From: Arctopsyche grandis
Lineage: Eukaryota; Arthropoda; Insecta; Trichoptera; Hydropsychidae
Reading direction: 5' to 3'
Assembly: GCF_051622035.1 (NCBI RefSeq)
Contig: NC_135356.1
Coordinates: 9,770,579 to 9,834,578 of the forward strand
DNA length: 64,000 nt
The position numbers were made by a program, and so were the translations under genes. Numbering within the stretch: position 1 is the stretch's first letter; each line of letters opens with the position of its first letter. Positions 6,926-60,375 of this stretch are shown one piece after another. The notes under the pieces were generated by a model. The model had not been told where the DNA came from and searched no databases. It was given only the letters and a program-made list of their open reading frames with translations.

Positions 6926-7098
6926 AAGTAAAAATGTGTGGGGTGAAATGGGTGAGAGCTACACAAAACAGAGACAAATCAGGCGTGTTTGAGGCTTTCA
7001 CCCAGCAGCAAAAATAAATTCACATGTACATACATCATTTCAACCATCGTCGTCATTTGTTTATGGCTGTAAATGATAATACTGAGTTTATAAGCTAT
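6926..7098. other. Left flank of the gypsy element
   Basis: Short AT-moderate segment between the Helitron-derived array and the LTR. No gene or repeat end recognised. The five bases before the LTR are GCTAT; no matching target duplication is evident after the other LTR, so one boundary may be imprecise or lost. Confidence 0.4.
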
Positions 7099-27138: not shown

Positions 27139-29373
27139 ATGGTCTACATATCATCAGGTTTGTATATTATTCTATCATTTTAATTGCTTGCACCATTTTT
27201 AAAATGCGAATTGATCAAATACATCAAGTCTCCGGTTTTTTTACTTCGCATACTGTGTGTCAAGGCTGTTCACAAAGTAAAACGCAATATGATTGTGCGT
27301 CGATTGATTGGGTGTTGAACACAAAGAACTCCATGTACATATATATTATCATATCCATACTCGCAACTTCTTTAAATAATTCTGATCGCATATGTTACAC
27401 ATTGTAATGATTCGATAAACAAAATTTAATATTTAATTGTTTGTGTTTTATTTGTGTTGTAGATGGTTCAGTGAGCCGTAAAGCCCCGCTCAGTTTATCC
27501 TTGGTGTTTGGATATTTTTGGGGAATTCTAGACTTCGTTTACATGTTGTAAGTCTTGCGCAATATCGACTTAAAATACAGATGGTATTATAAACAATGAA
27601 TTATTATAAAATATATGTTTTCAGTGGCTGGACTCTATTCAATCCGGGAACAAATAGACAAGATCCTCGCTATTCTGTTGCTTTTAGACCACCAGGCACC
27701 GGGTATGCATTTTACTATTTATTTATTTATTTATTGAATAATCAACAGGCAACATATGTAGTAATACATAATTATAGATTTTTACAAATTACATAAAATG
27801 GTACATAGAGACAAATAAATGAAAAAGAAAAGAATTAAAATTAAAATATGACTAAATAGGAGAGTCTATAAATAAACATAAAGTGATATATTATTGGATA
27901 AAGATTATATAATAGAAATAGATGGCAGTCCTGAATTGATACAAAGAAATACCGAATAGATCAACGTCACTCAGCTCTCCGTTAAACATACGATAAACAC
28001 GCTGTAGATAGGAATATTTTACAGAATTAAAGAAAAGAGTGCAACGTGTCTAGAATACCTAACTGGGATCCTGAAACCAACCTTACTCAGTAAATCGGGA
28101 CTATCAAAGAAACCATTTAGGAGCTTTAAAGGGAATGTAGCCAGTGAGACGTCGCCTGACAGAAAGATTGTTAAAGGATAGGAATTTTAAAATATCGGGA
28201 ATAGTAGTATGGGCGTAGATAGGAAAACGGTAGCGTAAGGATTTGATCAATTTTAGTTGGACATTTTCAATACAATTAATATGGGATATATAAAAAGGTG
28301 ATCAGATAATTGAGGCAAATTCAAGGTGAGACCTTACAAGGGAAAAATAAAGTAGTTTAAGTAAATGAGGATCATTAAAGGGTTTAGTTGAGCGGAGTAG
28401 GAATCCAAAAGATTTATATGCTTTATTAGTGTAGGAATATAACACAAAGTGTGCCATTTCTAAGCAAAAACAGTGATCCCATATATCCTGTACAATCACG
28501 CAGAACTCGAGAGCAACGACCCCTTCGACCATTCCAGAAGAAAGAGTTCATCGTTCGATCATAAACAAACAATGATCTCACCAGGCCACTGCGACACATA
28601 TCCTGAAAATCGTTTACTCGTGGCAATCATTTACACGTGTTCGTGGAAACAAAGAAAAAGCATTCATGTGTGGCGCTTGAACCTATAAAACAGGTCGACA
28701 CGTGCTTCGTATATACGTGTCTTGGAAACAAAGGAAGCGTATGACCCCATTCTCTTACGGACATCGTCCTGGCTTTGACCCCAAAGCTATAAAACTCTCG
28801 CCCTGAGAACACGTGCCCTGGAGAACAAAGAGATCTTTTGCACACGCCACGCTCAGAACTTCCATATATAAACCCGCACAGCAGACGCAGCAGCAGTCCA
28901 GTCCAGACTTTTCCCTGAAGCAGGCAACTAGCCCACTTCCCCGTGAAATTTTCTGTACTTACCATAAATTGAATTCTGGAGAAAATAAATATACTCTGTT
29001 AACTACAACGAGTTTCCGTAGGCCGGGTTTCGGTCACAACATAACCTCTCGACCTACATTAGTAATGAAGGAAATATGTTCAAAGCCATCGAGTTTATAA
29101 TTAAGTATTACACCGAGATCCTTAATAGAAGAGGTTGTATTTGGAATTAAATGGTTTAAATGATAATGATAAGTGATAATAGATTTAAGATGGAACATTT
29201 TTCAGGATTTAGATTTACTATATGTAATTGAAATGCATTGTTATCTTTCTGATGTAACTTTTGTGATTATTTCTTTTTTTAGAAATGGCCCTTCAAATCC
29301 ACGATTTGGTGGACTTGGACCTTCCGGTGGACCGAATTCTCCTCCTCCACCGGGTTGCGGCTGCGGTGGTTAA
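27139..29373 (+). CDS. SelK: Selenoprotein K homologue with Cys in place of Sec, complete, 4 exons
   Basis: Small single-pass ER membrane protein; the family binds p97/VCP and Derlin in ER-associated degradation and partners the DHHC6 acyltransferase in vertebrates. Coding exons are 27139-27157, 27463-27547, 27625-27702 and 29283-29373, with GT/AG introns and matching phases, for 273 bp or 90 residues, the usual family size. The product starts MVYISSDGSVSRK, then a membrane helix (LSLVFGYFWGILDFVYMFF, about residues 18-36), then a Gly/Pro-rich cytosolic tail ending SPPPPGCGCGG. Vertebrate and fly SelK have selenocysteine near this end (GGUG-type); here the codon is TGC and the frame ends at TAA, so no Sec insertion is needed. 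The start sits in a good context (GCGATGG). Intron 3 (1.58 kb) is enlarged by a LINE and a solo LTR. Confidence 0.93.
27717..29195 (-). pseudogene. LINE reverse transcriptase fragment in SelK intron 3
   Basis: The minus strand reads SSIKDLGVILNYKLDGFEHI (about 29145-29085). After the LTR at 28430-29058 is removed it continues NKAYKSFGFLLRSTKPF, LVRSHLEFASII, NCIENVQLKLIKSLRYRFP. This is the post-YADD region of Jockey/R1-type elements. An AAAT-repeat tail lies at its 3' end (27717-27737). It is 5' truncated, has stops, and was split by the LTR. Confidence 0.85.
28430..29058 (+). mobile_element. Solo LTR (family C) in SelK intron 3, sense orientation
   Basis: Runs TGTAGG...CCTACA and is flanked by TTAG on both sides (28426-28429 and 29059-29062), a 4-bp target duplication. 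The LINE frame continues on either side, proving insertion into the LINE. It holds a TATA-like CATATATAAACC (28862) and an AATAAA (28984). No internal retroelement sequence remains, so it is a solo LTR left by LTR-LTR recombination. Confidence 0.9.
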
Positions 29374-29792
29374 AAATTCGCATTGACCATTATTTTATTA
29401 TCACGAGGCTCTTCTATATTTCACTTCGCTCATTGGTCTGACAACATATTATATTATATTATATTCTGCATTCTTCCGATTGTTTTGAAGTTTTTTTGCC
29501 ATTTTATTATTATTCATTTCATTATGCTCGATGCTATTTATTTTATTAATCTAAATTAATTTTACATGTGAATCTGCTTGATTTTCGTTTGTATAAAATA
29601 GTATATAGGTATATTTTAATTCAATCTTTTAAAATTGTGTCACAAAGGAATAATCAAACAACTGATTAAACCATTTCCTCGTTTGCGTATGATGTATGTA
29701 TGTACATAGTGTATGTATTGTCATTCTATTGAAACCTTGATAACTATTAAACAAAGATAGCTGCGCAGGACAAAAGTAAATTCCTATATATT
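29374..29792 (+). other. SelK 3' flank, probable 3' UTR
   Basis: AT-rich sequence after the SelK stop codon, with no other gene. It ends where the 798-bp tandem array starts. Whether a SECIS-like fold persists cannot be judged by eye, and a Cys codon would not need one. Confidence 0.5.
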
Positions 29793-32700
29793 ATATTTTA
29801 TATCTAATAAAAATTAAAACGTACTCATGATTAGATATCGGAGTCACAAATTCTCTCATTTAATAAAAAATTTTATTATATAATATATTGTGGTATTTAA
29901 AAATATCTAAAACACATATTCTTAAAAACAAAGATTCACAAATGGTTTCAAAAAAATATTATTTAACAAGTTTCAAAAATGTAAAAAAGTTTGAGGAACA
30001 ATTGTTAAATTAATTTAAGAATGACTGGTAAAAATGATTTTAAAACTATGTTAGTGAACAAGTTGAGAACGCAATGTGCCTCTGTTGAAGAGTGGAATCA
30101 AATCTGTCATCATCATCATTGTCGTCGGCCGTTCACCATGCACTGCTGGATGAAGGCCTCTCCAACACGCTTTCACTCACTCTGGTTTTGCGCAACTATC
30201 TTCCATCTCACCCCACACATTTTCCTAATTGTGTCTATCCATCTTGCGCAAACCGGTTCGAGTGGAACCGTGTTGTTGAGGCCTTCATCCAGCAGTGCAC
30301 GGTGAGCAACAGACGACGATGAAGATGATGACTGATTTAATTCTTCTTTTCAACGGAATCACATTGGGTTCTCAATTTGTTCACTATTAAAATATTTTTT
30401 AAAAAATTTTTACCAGTCATTCTTAACCGTTTGTCCGCGGCCGTCTTCTATGGAAGACAAGTCTGTAGCGCGGCTGTCTTCCATAGAATTTCTGAACTTT
30501 GCACGGGGTTTTGAGGCTTATATGCGCCTATTTCAACTGTTTTAAGGTTCAAAATTGTTTGAATATACATATAACTGAGAGTTGAATGCCATATTTTATA
30601 TCTAATAAAAATTAAAACGTACTCATGATTAGATATCGGAGTCACAAATTCTCTCATTTAATAAAAAATTTTATTACATAATATATTGTGGTATTTAAAA
30701 ATATCTAAAACACATAGTCTTAAAAACAAAGATTCACAAATGGTTTCAAAAAAATATTATTTAACAAGTTTCAAAAATGTAAAAAAGTTTGAGGAACAAT
30801 TGTTAAATTAATTTAAGAATGACTGGTAAAAATGATTTTAAAACTATGTTAGTGAACAAGTTGAGAACGCAATGTGCCTCTGTTGAAGAGTGGAATCAAA
30901 TCTGTCATCATCATCATTGTCGTCGGCCGTTCACCATGCACTGCTGGATGAAGGCCTCTCCAACACGCTTTCACTCACTCTGGTTTTGCGCAACTATCAT
31001 CCATCTCACCCCACACATTTTCCTAATTGTGTCTATCCATCTTGCGCAAACCGGTTCGAGTGGAACCGTGTTGTTGAGGCCTTCATCCAGCAGTGCACGG
31101 TGAGCAACAGACGACGATGAAGATGATGACTGATTTAATTCTTCTTTTCAACGGAATCACATTGGGTTCTCAATTTGTTCACTATTAAAATATTTTTTAA
31201 AAAATTTTTACCAGTCATTCTTAACCGTTTGTCCGCGGCCGTCTTCTATGGAAGACAAGTCTGTAGCGCGGCTGTCTTCCATAGAATTTCTGAACTTTGC
31301 ACGGGGTTTTGAGGCTTATATGCGCCTATTTCAACTGTTTTAAGGTTCAAAATTGTTTGAATATACATATAACTGAGAGTTGAATGCTATATTTTATATC
31401 TAATAAAAATTAAAACGTACTCATGATTAGATATCGGAGTCACAAATTCTCTCATTTAATAAAAAATTTTATTACATAATATATTGTGGTATTTAAAAAT
31501 ATCTAAAACACATAGTCTTAAAAACAAAGATTCACAAATGGTTTCAAAAAAATATTATTTAACAAGTTTCAAAAATGTAAAAAAGTTTGAGGAACAATTG
31601 TTAAATTAATTTAAGAATGACTGGTAAAAATGATTTTAAAACTATGTTAGTGAACAAGTTGAGAACGCAATGTGCCTCTGTTGAAGAGTGGAATCAAATC
31701 TGTCATCATCATCATTGTCGTCGGCCGTTCACCATGCACTGCTGGATGAAGGCCTCTCCAACACGCTTTCACTCACTCTGGTTTTGCGCAACTATCATCC
31801 ATCTCACCCCACACATTTTCCTAATTGTGTCTATCCATCTTGCGCAAACCGGTTCGAGTGGAACCGTGTTGTTGAGGCCTTCATCCAGCAGTGCACGGTG
31901 AGCAACAGACGACGATGAAGATGATGACTGATTTAATTCTTCTTTTCAACGGAATCACATTGGGTTCTCAATTTGTTCACTATTAAAATATTTTTTAAAA
32001 CATTTTTACCAGTCATTCTTAACCGTTTGTCCGCGGCCGTCTTCTATGGAAGACAAGTCTGTAGCGCGGCTGTCTTCCATAGAATTTCTGAACTTTGCAC
32101 GGGGTTTTGAGGCTTATATGCGCCTATTTCAACTGTTTTAAGGTTCAAAATTGTTTGAATATACATATAACTGAGAGTTGAATGCTATATTTTATATCTA
32201 ATAAAAATTAAAACGTACTCATGATTAGATATCGGAGTCACAAATTCTCTCATTTAATAAAAAATTTTATTACATAATATATTGTGGTATTTAAAAATAT
32301 CTAAAACACATAGTCTTAAAAACAAAGATTCACAAATGGTTTCAAAAAAATATTATTTAACAAGTTTCAAAAATGTAAAAAAGTTTGAGGAACAATTGTT
32401 AAATTAATTTAAGAATGACTGGTAAAAATGATTTTAAAACTATGTTAGTGAACAAGTTGAGAACGCAATGTGCCTCTGTTGAAGAGTGGAATCAAATCTG
32501 TCATCATCATCATTGTCGTCGGCCGTTCACCATGCACTGCTGGATGAAGGCCTCTCCAACACGCTTTCACTCACTCTGGTTTTGCGCAACTATCATCCAT
32601 CTCACCCCACACATTTTCCTAATTGTGTCTATCCATCTTGCGCAAACCGATTCGAGTGGAACCGTGTTGTTGAGGCCTTCATCCAGCAGTGCACGGTGAG

Positions 32701-35700
32701 CAACAGACGACGATGAAGATGATGACTGATTTAATTCTTCTTTTCAACGGAATCACATTGGGTTCTCAATTTGTTCACTATTAAAATATTTTTTAAAAAA
32801 TTTTTACCAGTCATTCTTAACCGTTTGTCCGCGGCCGTCTTCTATGGAAGACAAGTCTGTAGCGCGGCTGTCTTCCATAGAATTTCTGAACTTTGCACGG
32901 GGTTTTGAGGCTTATATGCGCCTATTTCAACTGTTTTACGGTTCAAAATTGTTTGAATATACATATAACTGAGAGTTGAATGCCATATTTTTTATCTAAT
33001 AAAAATTAAAACGTACTCATGATTAGATATCGGAGTCACAAATTCTCTCATTTAATAAAAAATTTTATTATATAATATATTGTGGTATTTAAAAATATCT
33101 AAAACACATATTCTTAAAAACAAAGATTCACAAATGGTTTCAAAAAAATATTATTTAACAAGTTTCAAAAATGTAAAAAAGTTTGAGGAACAATTGTTAA
33201 ATTAATTTAAGAATGACTGGTAAAAATGATTTTAAAACTATGTTAGTGAACAAGTTGAGAACGCAATGTGCCTCTGTTGAAGAGTGGAATCAAATCTGTC
33301 ATCATCATCATTGTCGTCGGCCGTTCACCATGCACTGCTGGATGAAGGCCTCTCCAACACGCTTTCACTCACTCTGGTTTTGCGCAACTATCATCCATCT
33401 CACCCCACACATTTTCCTAATTGTGTCTATCCATCTTGCGCAAACCGGTTCGAGTGGAACCGTGTTGTTGAGGCCTTCATCCAGCAGTGCACGGTGAGCA
33501 ACAGACGACGATGAAGATGATGACTGATTTAATTCTTCTTTTCAACGGAATCACATTGGGTTCTCAATTTGTTCACTATTAAAATATTTTTTAAAACATT
33601 TTTACCAGTCATTCTTAACCGTTTGTCCGCGGCCGTCTTCTATGGAAGACAAGTCTGTAGCGCGGCTGTCTTCCATAGAATTTCTGAACTTTGCACGGGG
33701 TTTTGAGGCTTATATGCGCCTATTTCAACTGTTTTACGGTTCAAAATTGTTTGAATATACATATAACTGAGAGTTGAATGCCATATTTTTTATCTAATAA
33801 AAATTAAAACGTACTCATGATTAGATATCGGAGTCACAAATTCTCTCATTTAATAAAAAATTTTATTATATAATATATTGTGGTATTTAAAAATATCTAA
33901 AACACATATTCTTAAAAACAAAGATTCACAAATGGTTTCAAAAAAATATTATTTAACAAGTTTCAAAAATGTAAAAAAGTTTGAGGAACAATTGTTAAAT
34001 TAATTTAAGAATGACTGGTAAAAATGATTTTAAAACTATGTTAGTGAACAAGTTGAGAACGCAATGTGCCTCTGTTGAAGAGTGGAATCAAATCTGTCAT
34101 CATCATCATTGTCGTCGGCCGTTCACCATGCACTGCTGGATGAAGGCCTCTCCAACACGCTTTCACTCACTCTGGTTTTGCGCAACTATCATCCATCTCA
34201 CCCCACACATTTTCCTAATTGTGTCTATCCATCTTGCGCAAACCGGTTCGAGTGGAACCGTGTTGTTGAGGCCTTCATCCAGCAGTGCACGGTGAGCAAC
34301 AGACGACGATGAAGATGATGACTGATTTAATTCTTCTTTTCAACGGAATCACATTGGGTTCTCAATTTGTTCACTATTAAAATATTTTTTAAAACATTTT
34401 TACCAGTCATTCTTAACCGTTTGTCCGCGGCCGTCTTCTATGGAAGACAAGTCTGTAGCGCGGCTGTCTTCCATAGAATTTCTGAACTTTGCACGGGGTT
34501 TTGAGGCTTATATGCGCCTATTTCAACTGTTTTACGGTTCAAAATTGTTTGAATATACATATAACTGAGAGTTGAATGCCATATTTTTTATCTAATAAAA
34601 ATTAAAACGTACTCATGATTAGATATCGGAGTCACAAATTCTCTCATTTAATAAAAAATTTTATTACATAATATATTGTGGTATTTAAAAATATCTAAAA
34701 CACATAGTCTTAAAAACAAAGATTCACAAATGGTTTCAAAAAAATATTATTTAACAAGTTTCAAAAATGTAAAAAAGTTTGAGGAACAATTGTTAAATTA
34801 ATTTAAGAATGACTGGTAAAAATGATTTTAAAACTATGTTAGTGAACAAGTTGAGAACGCAATGTGCCTCTGTTGAAGAGTGGAATCAAATCTGTCATCA
34901 TCATCATTGTCGTCGGCCGTTCACCATGCACTGCTGGATGAAGGCCTCTCCAACACGCTTTCACTCACTCTGGTTTTGCGCAACTATCATCCATCTCACC
35001 CCACACATTTTCCTAATTGTGTCTATCCATCTTGCGCAAACCGGTTCGAGTGGAACCGTGTTGTTGAGGCCTTCATCCAGCAGTGCACGGTGAGCAACAG
35101 ACGACGATGAAGATGATGACTGATTTAATTCTTCTTTTCAACGGAATCACATTGGGTTCTCAATTTGTTCACTATTAAAATATTTTTTAAAACATTTTTA
35201 CCAGTCATTCTTAACCGTTTGTCCGCGGCCGTCTTCTATGGAAGACAAGTCTGTAGCGCGGCTGTCTTCCATAGAATTTCTGAACTTTGCACGGGGTTTT
35301 GAGGCTTATATGCGCCTATTTCAACTGTTTTACGGTTCAAAATTGTTTGAATATACATATAACTGAGAGTTGAATGCCATATTTTTTATCTAATAAAAAT
35401 TAAAACGTACTCATGATTAGATATCGGAGTCACAAATTCTCTCATTTAATAAAAAATTTTATTATATAATATATTGTGGTATTTAAAAATATCTAAAACA
35501 CATATTCTTAAAAACAAAGATTCACAAATGGTTTCAAAAAAATATTATTTAACAAGTTTCAAAAATGTAAAAAAGTTTGAGGAACAATTGTTAAATTAAT
35601 TTAAGAATGACTGGTAAAAATGATTTTAAAACTATGTTAGTGAACAAGTTGAGAACGCAATGTGCCTCTGTTGAAGAGTGGAATCAAATCTGTCATCATC

Positions 35701-36350
35701 ATCATTGTCGTCGGCCGTTCACCATGCACTGCTGGATGAAGGCCTCTCCAACACGCTTTCACTCACTCTGGTTTTGCGCAACTATCATCCATCTCACCCC
35801 ACACATTTTCCTAATTGTGTCTATCCATCTTGCGCAAACCGGTTCGAGTGGAACCGTGTTGTTGAGGCCTTCATCCAGCAGTGCACGGTGAGCAACAGAC
35901 GACGATGAAGATGATGACTGATTTAATTCTTCTTTTCAACGGAATCACATTGGGTTCTCAATTTGTTCACTATTAAAATATTTTTTAAAACATTTTTACC
36001 AGTCATTCTTAACCGTTTGTCCGCGGCCGTCTTCTATGGAAGACAAGTCTGTAGCGCGGCTGTCTTCCATAGAATTTCTGAACTTTGCACGGGGTTTTGA
36101 GGCTTATATGCGCCTATTTCAACTGTTTTACGGTTCAAAATTGTTTGAATATACATATAACTGAGAGTTGAATGCCATATTTTTTATCTAATAAAAATTA
36201 AAACGTACTCATGATTAGATATCGGAGTCACAAATTCTCTCATTTAATAAAAAATTTTATTACATAATATATTGTGGTATTTAAAAATATCTAAAACACA
36301 TAGTCTTAAAAACAAAGATTCACAAATATAACTGAGAGTTGAATGCCATC
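29793..36350. repeat. Satellite array: eight full 798-bp monomers plus a deleted ninth
   Basis: The same sequence starts at 29793, 30591, 31389, 32187, 32985, 33783, 34581 and 35379, exactly 798 bp apart each time, with a ninth partial copy from 36177. Copies differ only by a handful of substitutions (TATATAATA/TACATAATA, ATATTCTT/ATAGTCTT, TTTAAGG/TTTACGG, AAAAAATTT/AAAACATTT) and no indels are needed. The ninth copy breaks at about 36326 and resumes at the monomer's end (ATAACTGAGAGTTGAATGCC), so about 0.64 kb is missing. The small open frames in each monomer are by-products and not genes. Confidence 0.98.
30015..30426. repeat. 412-bp foldback inside each 798-bp monomer (first copy)
   Basis: Bounded by TTAAGAATGACTGGTAAAAA and its complement, with TTAA at both ends (30015-30018 and 30423-30426). 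The arms stay complementary inward through AACAAGTTGAGAACGCAATG, CATCATCATC and TGCACTGCTGGATGAAGGCC, to a loop of roughly 110 bp. The right arm encodes VVEAFIQQCTVSNRRR and the left arm encodes a similar peptide on the minus strand; both resemble the C-terminus of RTE-like LINEs. Seven further copies lie at +798-bp steps. Confidence 0.9.
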
Positions 36351-37780
36351 TATTAAATTTGCTTAAAATGAATATATATCAGTCAAAAATTAGTTTTTTA
36401 TGGAACCATACTGAAACTTCGTTTATGTGACGTCACGTCTTCATACAATTATGAAGAATGATTATTTGACAATTAATCCAAAACTATGAGATATATTATG
36501 TATTTTATTGTTTAAAATAATACTTTATATGTTAATTAACATATCTGATTACTTCAGTGAACATTAAAATCTGTATTTAAGGTCGAAAACTCGATTGCTA
36601 AAGGGCTTATTCGCTATATTTATCGCCGGGGGCAAAGGGTTAAATGAATATAACAATTGTTCCTCAAACTTTTTTACATTTTACGTGTTCTCCATTTTTT
36701 TTTTCACTACTTAATAGTTTTTTAAACTATTTAAAAGCTTAAAAACCACAGGCGATGAAATTCAAAAAAATCATTTTCTATACTGTCATAAAACTTGTTC
36801 TGAAAATTCTTCAAAAAATTTAAAACCACTAACATTTAAATATTGATAATTTCGAAAAAAATTAACACTACTTAAAAATTTGAAAATAAGTTTGAGAGTC
36901 GTAAAAATCATTTGGGAATCTTTGAAATGTGATTAAGCTCATATATACTGAATACCCAAAGTGGCCAAATTGTGGCTTGCTAGTCACAGTGGCTATATAC
37001 CGTTCTTGGTATTTAAATTTGCGCTATTTCAGTAAAAACGAATTTCAATAATAAAAAAAAATTGACGTTAATATAAATATTTGGAAAATTTAAAATTAAT
37101 TTCGATCTGGCAAATCTCAAACCTGAAATAAATTCTGAGCGATACGAGCTAAAGGGTCAGCATATCTATAAATTGGCATAAATGATCACATTTGCGAACC
37201 ACGTGAAGTCATTGCGGACTTGTAAATCAATGCCAATTTATGGAAGTGCTAACAATAGAAATATATACGGCTCTTTGAGGGCTTGTGGTTTGCTAGAATC
37301 AATCGGTAAGATTGCTGAGCTATTGCTCATTATAATTACTCGTGTATTCAAATATATGTAATTGCGTTGCTTATAATAATTTCATAACATTGCAATATCA
37401 AAGATGCAACATGTATGTTTTTCTCCTTTGTTATTCTAGCCTTATATAAAATGATTTAATTCCAAACAATGAACATGTGTTTTCTTGCATGTATATGTAT
37501 GTATTTTATAGGTATAGTATAATATTTAGCGAAAAAAGCGACATGTGTATTTACAAGCAATTATATTCTAATCTATGTATGTATATCATAATAAACATTG
37601 CTCTATGTAGCGTATATTATTTCTTGTTTGATTTTTTTCAACAAACCATGTCATGATCAGCCATTGCTATTCTATACACATATAACGTAGTTTTTTGACC
37701 ATCGTCTGGTGTGAAATCTTCATGACTTCAATAAGCATCCACTGAAATGATCCACTACCTATTGTATTTCATGAAATATG
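36351..37780. other. Intergenic DNA between satellite and MULE-like element
   Basis: No gene is seen. At 36650-36690 CAATTGTTCCTCAAACTTTTT is the inverse of a stretch inside the 798-bp monomer, so fragments of the same repeat extend here. The rest is AT-rich and unassigned. Confidence 0.5.
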
Positions 37781-39589: not shown

Positions 39590-40422
39590 TCGAAAATTCC
39601 CAGCACCACAGTGTCAGTGCTGAAGTGACCTTCCGGGATTGGAAGCCCCATGGGGTCCCAAAGGGGGCGCAGTCTTATGGGGCGCCGCCTTATGGAGCTC
39701 AGCCGCATGGGGCCCCGAAGGGGGCGCAGTCTCATGGGGCGCAGCCCCATGGGGCCCCAAAGGGGGCGCAGCCTTATCGGGCGCAGCCTTATGGGGCGCT
39801 GCCTTATGGGGCGCTGCCTTATGGGGCGCCGCCTTATGGAGCTCAGCCGCATGGGGCCCCGAAGGGGGCGCAGCCTTATGGGGCGAAGCCCTAAACGGCA
39901 ACTGATCATGGGGGCGAAGCCTTAGACGGCATTTAATCATGGGGGCGCGGAAGAGCGAAGCCCTAAAAGGCATAAACTAAGGGGGGCGAAGCCTTAGACG
40001 GCATTCAATCATGGGGGCGCGGAGGGGCGAAGCCCTAAAAGGCATTAACTAAGGGGACGAAGCCCTAAACGCCAATTAATCTTGGGGGCGTGGAAGGGCG
40101 AAGCCCTAAAATGCATTAACTAAGGGGGGGCGAAGCCCTAAAATGGATCAGCTAAGGGAGGCGAAGCCCTAAACGGCAATTGCTCATGGTGGCTTTGAGG
40201 GGCGAAGCCCTAGAAGGCAAAGGCACAGGGGGGCGCCGAGGGCGAAGCCCTAGAAGGCAAAAAATTTTTTTTTGATTTTTAATTTTATTTTTTTATTTAT
40301 TTATTTTTTTTTTTTTAATTTACAATTTTTATTTTTATATTTTAATGTTTACTATTAGATTAGTCATGTTTAAGCGGTTTATATTATAAATACTGAGCGA
40401 AGCCGGGTATTTTTACAGCTAG
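39590..40422 (+). mobile_element. Helitron-like element, 3' end intact, GC-rich minisatellite core
   Basis: Ends GAGCGAAGCCGGGTA...ACAGCTAG before a T (40419-40422 is CTAG). Insect Helitrons commonly end in CTAG before a host T, often after such a GAAGCC..GGG segment. The interior is an expanded minisatellite of GGGGCGCAGCCTTATGGGGC-like and GGGCGAAGCCCTAAAAGGCA-like units. The 5' end was not found. Several frames are open through the minisatellite only because the repeat lacks stops. Confidence 0.75.
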
Positions 40423-40613: not shown

Positions 40614-52493
<11,880 letters not shown>

Positions 52494-60130: not shown

Positions 60131-60375
60131 GCGACGAACCCATCAATTGGGCACGTGTCACAGGAGAAGAGAGCAAACTGTGGAATCTATTGAATCTGGC
60201 TCGAAACATTGAAGCTTACATAATTCTGCAAGGATTTCGGGGATTGCTCACCAAACCAACCAGTAACTTATAGATTGAGAGTTGCCGAAAACAGAGACGA
60301 ATTGAAACCCATTGGAGAGGTCTTCATCCAGCAGTGGATGATGAATGGCTGTGAATGACGATGATGATGATGATA
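60131..60375 (+). pseudogene. RTE-like LINE 3' end
   Basis: The plus-strand frames end in LRVAENRDELKPIGEVFIQQ WMMNGCE followed by (GATGAT)n. This is the C-terminus plus microsatellite tail of an RTE-like element, and it is the solitary version of the sequence found inverted in the 798-bp satellite. Confidence 0.75.

Follow-up and report, generated by a model that had tools for sequence, protein, structure and literature searches.

Introduction

Tetris (TIR-220) of Drosophila virilis is described as a dispersed foldback-like transposon whose internal TIR repeats have been amplified (PMC4079207). In the coral CMITE arrays, piggyBac-related MITEs lie in tandem and the elements are highly similar to one another, for which replication slippage was proposed over independent transposition (PMC2872659). 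Routes by which transposable-element sequence can become a tandem array are also described, among them microhomology-mediated end joining between sister chromatids and unequal exchange (PMC12628747, PMC9659126). As these cases are on record, the kind of array that we report here is already known from the systems described in that literature.

The array lies in a 64,000-nucleotide stretch of the genome of Arctopsyche grandis (hereafter the window). It had previously been described from the letters of the window alone (the sequence-only reading) as a young foldback satellite beside a selenoprotein gene. Our analysis indicates that the array is very probably a locally born satellite, that is, a slice of nested mobile-DNA remains that was tandemly duplicated in place.

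Organization of the array

The period of the array is strict. Self-comparison at an offset of 798 gave 96.4% matches across the region, and the offsets 796, 797, 799 and 800 gave 31–32%. TRF, run for long periods, reported 29793–36327 with a period of 798, 8.2 copies, 99% matches and 0% indels, i.e. highly similar units arranged head to tail. The array reaches further, to about 36347, because a ninth, deleted copy (171 of 798 bp) is present.

29793–36176, forward strand: eight full 798-bp units (self-match, TRF and unit comparison), starting at 29793, 30591, 31389, 32187, 32985, 33783, 34581 and 35379
36177–36347, forward strand: ninth unit, from which 627 bp are missing, the entire hairpin among them; the two sides of the deletion joint overlap by 2 bp

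Pairwise, the eight full units differ at a mean of 3.29 of 796 bp (0.41%; range 0–6). There are nine variable columns among them, two of which (columns 1–2) are partly the left edge itself. The eight full copies at exact 798-bp steps with scattered substitutions that the sequence-only reading had reported are confirmed by both TRF and the unit comparison; the ninth, deleted copy follows them. The absence of indels among the full units agrees with the TRF figure, and the earlier description of large hairpins in a young, strictly periodic tandem array is supported.

The sequence-only reading had further proposed that clusters of the same monomer elsewhere would support an active hairpin satellite. 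A genome search found full-length matches to the 798-bp unit here only (best 40 of 2079 candidates); with no full-length copies elsewhere, an active hairpin satellite is not borne out. The abundance, or the presence at several loci, that characterizes a classical satellite was likewise not found, full-length unit matches being confined to one locus of the 475.7-Mb assembly among the same best 40 of 2079 candidates. As the genome searches score the best candidates and skip very common words (for example, 40/2079 for the whole unit and 40/44 for the unit start), a diverged copy elsewhere could escape detection.

Other tandem repeats are present in the window. A second array at 1552–2513 has a 133-bp unit, 7.2 copies and 96% matches; a link with the 798-bp unit (6 × 133 = 798) was rejected, as there is no sequence similarity. 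G+C-rich minisatellites with GGGGCGAAGCCCTAAA-like units lie at 39644–40261 and 41709–42032, in opposite orientations and about 1.4 kb apart.

The inverted repeat

30015–30426, no strand assigned: 412-bp imperfect inverted repeat (hairpin) of unit 1, recurring at 798-bp steps in units 2–8

Folded as single-stranded DNA, positions 29990–30440 gave −137.6 kcal/mol against a shuffle mean of −46.1 kcal/mol (z = −22; 0/100 shuffles folded as well). The arms fall into a stretch of 137 nt (82% alike) and one of 39 nt (87%), with 61 nt between the inner arms, and their alignment has 30 mismatches in 180 aligned bases (16.7%). A 412-bp inverted repeat, described earlier as near-complete and bounded by TTAA, thus exists and is non-random, but ‘near-complete’ overstates arms that are about 83% alike.

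When the genome was searched with the hairpin, the matches away from the array were to its LINE-like part only (best 40 of 1031 candidates). The left outer arm with its left neighbour (query 30700–30908) gave 18 matches, all 18 of which lie in the array or its right flank (17/17 candidates scored); this stretch is, by that search, single-locus DNA. The dispersed copies with long terminal inverted repeats that are expected of a foldback transposon were not found in these searches, and the hairpin was rejected as a mobile foldback element. Because the left outer arm is single-locus and the dispersed matches are confined to the LINE-like part, the most fitting account of the hairpin is that of local DNA duplicated in inverted orientation together with a LINE-like tail, not that of a dispersed foldback element.

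The LINE-like parts occupy the centre of the hairpin; their coordinates in unit 1 were transferred from the search with unit 2.

30107–30245, reverse strand: unit 1, left half of the hairpin, a LINE-like 3′ end (at least 32 dispersed places; reading frame)
30244–30343, forward strand: unit 1, right half of the hairpin, a second LINE-like 3′ end in inverted orientation (genome search; reading frame)

The LINE-like piece was found at no fewer than 32 dispersed places at 84–91% identity (best 40 of 1031 candidates), and portions of it also occur in the window at 43392–43471, 60276–60373 and 6931–7008. Translated in reverse, the left arm reads RWIDTIRKMCGVRWMIVAQNQSE, a stop, KRVGEAFIQQCMVNGRRQ and a second stop, and the right arm reads ANRFEWNRVVEAFIQQCTVSNRRR followed by a stop. 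The left-arm peptide is 74% alike over 23 amino acids to a genomic copy (L069), which in turn weakly resembles the frame adjoining the RVT_1 ORF of the window (35% across 37 columns; E = 3e-5 when the two sequences were compared with each other). The right-arm peptide matched neither L069 nor this frame, the frame itself matched no Pfam family and a full-length element was not found. The central parts of the hairpin look like two inverted LINE 3′ ends, as judged from these frames and dispersed matches; their resemblance to a LINE family is otherwise presumed, and we assign no clade. A tRNA-derived SINE was also considered and rejected, there being no tRNA gene and no Rfam match at the gathering threshold. 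A B-box-like string in the hairpin centre, judged against what we take to be the consensus, was rejected as a sign of a SINE, as it reads as LINE-like frame.

The MITE at the right edge

30423–30590, forward strand: left part of the MITE, 168 bp, in unit 1 (dispersed places); recurs in units 2–8, with its last bases in unit 9
36348–36643, forward strand: right part of the MITE, 296 bp, outside the array and ending in TTAA (39 dispersed places and five pieces)
36640–36682, reverse strand: continuation of the right arm of the hairpin past the MITE (95% to unit positions 186–228)

The MITE is 464 bp long, of which 168 bp lie within the unit and 296 bp outside the array. TTAACCGTTTGTCCGCGGC starts at the outer end of the right arm and TTAACCCTTTGCCCCCGGC is found in the right flank on the other strand (36643), and together they enclose one such element. 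It is short and multicopy: at least 40 dispersed places match its left part (best 40 of 2079 candidates), and at least 39 dispersed places plus five further pieces match its right part (best 40 of 1093 candidates). Of 14 copies that were fetched, 8 have the exact end pattern on both sides and the remaining six on one side. Two dispersed copies contain repeats of their own: one (L060) has an in-place tandem duplication with a 323-bp unit present twice (99% alike) and another (L061) has three copies at 295–296 bp, two of them 99% alike and one 71%.

The insertion can be read against an empty site within the hairpin itself. The left arm has CATTC-TTAA-ATTAATTTAACAATTG, whereas the other side has CATTC-TTAA-MITE-TTAA-ATGAATATAACAATTG; since the right arm resumes past the second TTAA and there matches the left arms, the left arm represents the empty site of the MITE. 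In a genome search with 36640–37420, the 43-bp arm part matched the left arms of the eight units only (14/14 candidates scored), and the five other matches were all to other parts of the query. This extension is 95% alike and the arms are 83% alike; the higher value is perhaps chance in so short a stretch. The element at 30423–30590 and 36348–36643 therefore has the target duplication expected at TTAA, with TTAA at both ends and a paralogous empty site in the left arm. The sequence-only reading had taken the TTAA-bounded 412-bp foldback as an element in its own right; the TTAA is instead the target site of the MITE that interrupts the right arm, which resumes past the array. The hairpin thus seems to end at a TTAA because a 464-bp MITE was inserted at a TTAA in its right arm.

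The ends of the MITE, TTAACC(G/C)TTTG, are terminal inverted repeats like those of piggyBac elements. Five of six fetched loci with a piggyBac transposase match in the same genome have TTAACCCTTTG and TTAACCTTTTG ends, present on both sides, the sixth (L076) being without them, and TTAACC-TTTG is common to the MITE and these piggyBac transposons. On the evidence of its ends and target site, the MITE is assigned to the piggyBac type; it belongs to another family than the transposons compared, as the ends differ past the first 11 bases. A literature search with one string of the MITE found no paper that contains it.

The genome holds at least 116 piggyBac transposase matches (best 116 of 605 candidates), many of them equal-scoring and with open frames of 500–600 amino acids, which suggests the recent spread of several families. 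Three matches of equal score, at C12:669031, 695448 and 721865, are exactly 26,417 bp apart; a 26-kb segment is perhaps present three times in tandem, or the spacing reflects the assembly.

Duplication breakpoints

29755–29848, forward strand: dispersed repeat 2, through which the left edge of the array runs; its left part (29755–29792) is outside

The two edges of the array are in phase with respect to the unit, and each lies inside a repeat that continues outside. At the left edge, a match across the edge was seen at five of the best 40 places listed (of 510 candidates). The first bases of the unit occur at 30 or more dispersed places (best 40 of 44 candidates), and in an alignment of 12 of these at least seven, judged by eye, run on into the sequence that here lies outside the array. 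At the right edge, 14/14 fetched dispersed MITE copies read straight through the joint between unit end and flank. The left breakpoint is in repeat 2 and the right breakpoint is in the MITE, which fits a tandem duplication in place. The joint between units is GAATGCC-AT-ATTTTATATC, in which AT (2 bp) is common to both sides.

A ready-made element inserted here would not be expected to have the other halves of its parts outside the array. A Helitron-like unit with ends of its own was rejected, as the unit ends fall inside two other repeats. That an excised circle, which the sequence-only reading had named as one example of a source, is needed to seed the array is not supported.

Proposed growth of the array

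Column 755 is A in units 1–3 and C in units 4–8; the C is derived, because A is the base found in the 14 dispersed MITE copies. At column 10, units 1–4 have A and units 5–9 have T, and A is also the usual base in the aligned copies of repeat 2. From the patterns at these two columns, each of which changes once along the array, the derived types are those towards the right end. The bases at columns 89 and 129 change in step; along the eight full units column 89 reads T, C, C, C, T, T, C, T, followed by C in the ninth copy. Units 5, 6 and 8 are identical. This identity and the pattern at columns 89 and 129 would fit a late exchange shifted by two units.

The divergences are nested: 16.7% between the arms, 5.5% between the MITE and a consensus of 11 copies, and 0.41% among the units. 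Three of the 14 MITE copies (L031, L032 and L036), at 22–32% from the consensus, were left out of it, and the 5.5% is a rough guide because the copies were chosen for their likeness to the MITE of the window. The main grounds for the proposed order of hairpin, MITE and array are that the arm is interrupted and the MITE is cut.

In-place duplication could also have been followed by growth through circles from the locus that recombined back, and not by unequal exchange alone. A circle reinserted by homologous recombination leaves the same sequence, so that identical edges would be expected, and the copies are indeed near-identical. We nevertheless regard such circles as unlikely: they are not needed, as the stepwise change of variants along the array is given equally well by unequal exchange. 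An error of assembly, through which a single-copy or shorter array became too long or a longer array too short, would be in keeping with the identity of units 5, 6 and 8 and the few sites at which the others differ, but is improbable in view of the nine variable columns, the distinct unit types, the deletion in the ninth copy and flanks that fit one ancestral layout. Such an error could alter the copy number but not the existence of the duplication joint.

The neighbouring gene

The array starts 419 bp past a stop codon at 29371–29373 on the same strand. The sequence-only reading had placed it 420 bp past the stop codon of SelK; the array does adjoin a gene at this distance, but the identity of that gene as SelK is unsupported. 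The last-exon frame of the upstream gene matched no Pfam family, the SelK_SelG profile had no match in the window (8/8 candidates scored) and the frames upstream did not match SelK motifs. Elsewhere in the genome the profile matched weakly at two places, C7:3734823 (E = 0.024) and C2:35301026 (E = 0.044). The name SelK is thus not supported, because the last-exon frame is without a Pfam match and the profile matches lie elsewhere; split exons could hide a true SelK from the profile search. The place at C2:35301026–35301271 (L080) covers profile positions 2–84 with one in-frame TGA, and is perhaps the real SelK of this genome, with the TGA as selenocysteine. The stretch just behind the stop codon, 29392–29505, is itself a dispersed repeat, with matches at 34 of the best 40 places listed (82–93%).

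There are two ATTAAA signals between the stop codon and the array, and transcripts may therefore end before reaching it. A functional hairpin locus, either as a producer of small RNA or by shaping the 3′ end of the gene next to it, appears very unlikely: the hairpins are strong and follow a same-strand stop codon after 419 bp, but the arms have about 17% mismatches, the two ATTAAA signals come first and the hairpin has been lost from the ninth copy. There is a slim chance that the tandem hairpins are transcribed by read-through from the gene and enter the siRNA pathway; if so, a chance local duplication would have created a new source of small RNA against the MITE and LINE-like families of which it carries pieces. 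The array is explicable without any function.

Discussion

A mobile foldback element, whether the 798-bp unit or the 412-bp hairpin, that excised as a circle, was copied by rolling-circle replication and inserted here is scarcely credible: the strict period, the freedom from indels and the large hairpin with TTAA ends speak for it, but neither the whole unit nor the whole hairpin was found elsewhere (best 40 of 2079 and best 40 of 1031 candidates, respectively), the left outer arm is single-locus, both edges cut other repeats that run on outside and the TTAA is part of a MITE within the right arm.

For a locally born satellite, the layout, the divergences and the variant patterns suggest that a LINE-like 3′ end entered single-locus DNA, and that an inverted duplication of that stretch then produced the hairpin. 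The two following steps are read directly from the sequence comparisons: a 464-bp piggyBac-type MITE inserted into a TTAA of the right arm, and a 798-bp slice was tandemly duplicated in place, joining the breakpoint in the MITE to that in repeat 2. The joint has a 2-bp microhomology (AT), of the kind seen in end-joining or template switching. The same layout, divergences and variant patterns suggest unequal exchange as the source of the nine copies, with growth apparently more on the right and a late step that probably involved a two-unit block. Finally, a 627-bp deletion, evident in the last copy, removed its hairpin by a mechanism that we infer.

How a satellite began can usually no longer be seen. 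At this single locus the original arrangement, the MITE's empty site, the two breakpoints with their 2-bp microhomology, the succession of variants and the deletion are all still legible, and the array is a readable example of the birth of a satellite repeat and not a new mobile element. It also illustrates that a TTAA-bounded inverted repeat can mislead, as the boundary here is that of an inserted MITE.

Compared with the known systems, the array resembles Tetris, as described, in having foldback sequence in tandem in satellite-like arrays, but differs in that the hairpin here is a one-locus inverted duplication and the unit cuts across several repeats (PMC4079207). With the coral CMITEs it shares piggyBac-related MITE sequence in tandem; the coral arrays are described as consisting of full-sized MITEs, whereas the unit here combines about a third of a MITE (168/464 bp) with a hairpin, single-locus DNA and part of another repeat (PMC2872659). 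Set beside the satellites that are reported to have arisen from transposable-element remains (PMC12628747, PMC9659126), the present array differs in that the starting layout, both breakpoints and the later steps are legible at a single site.
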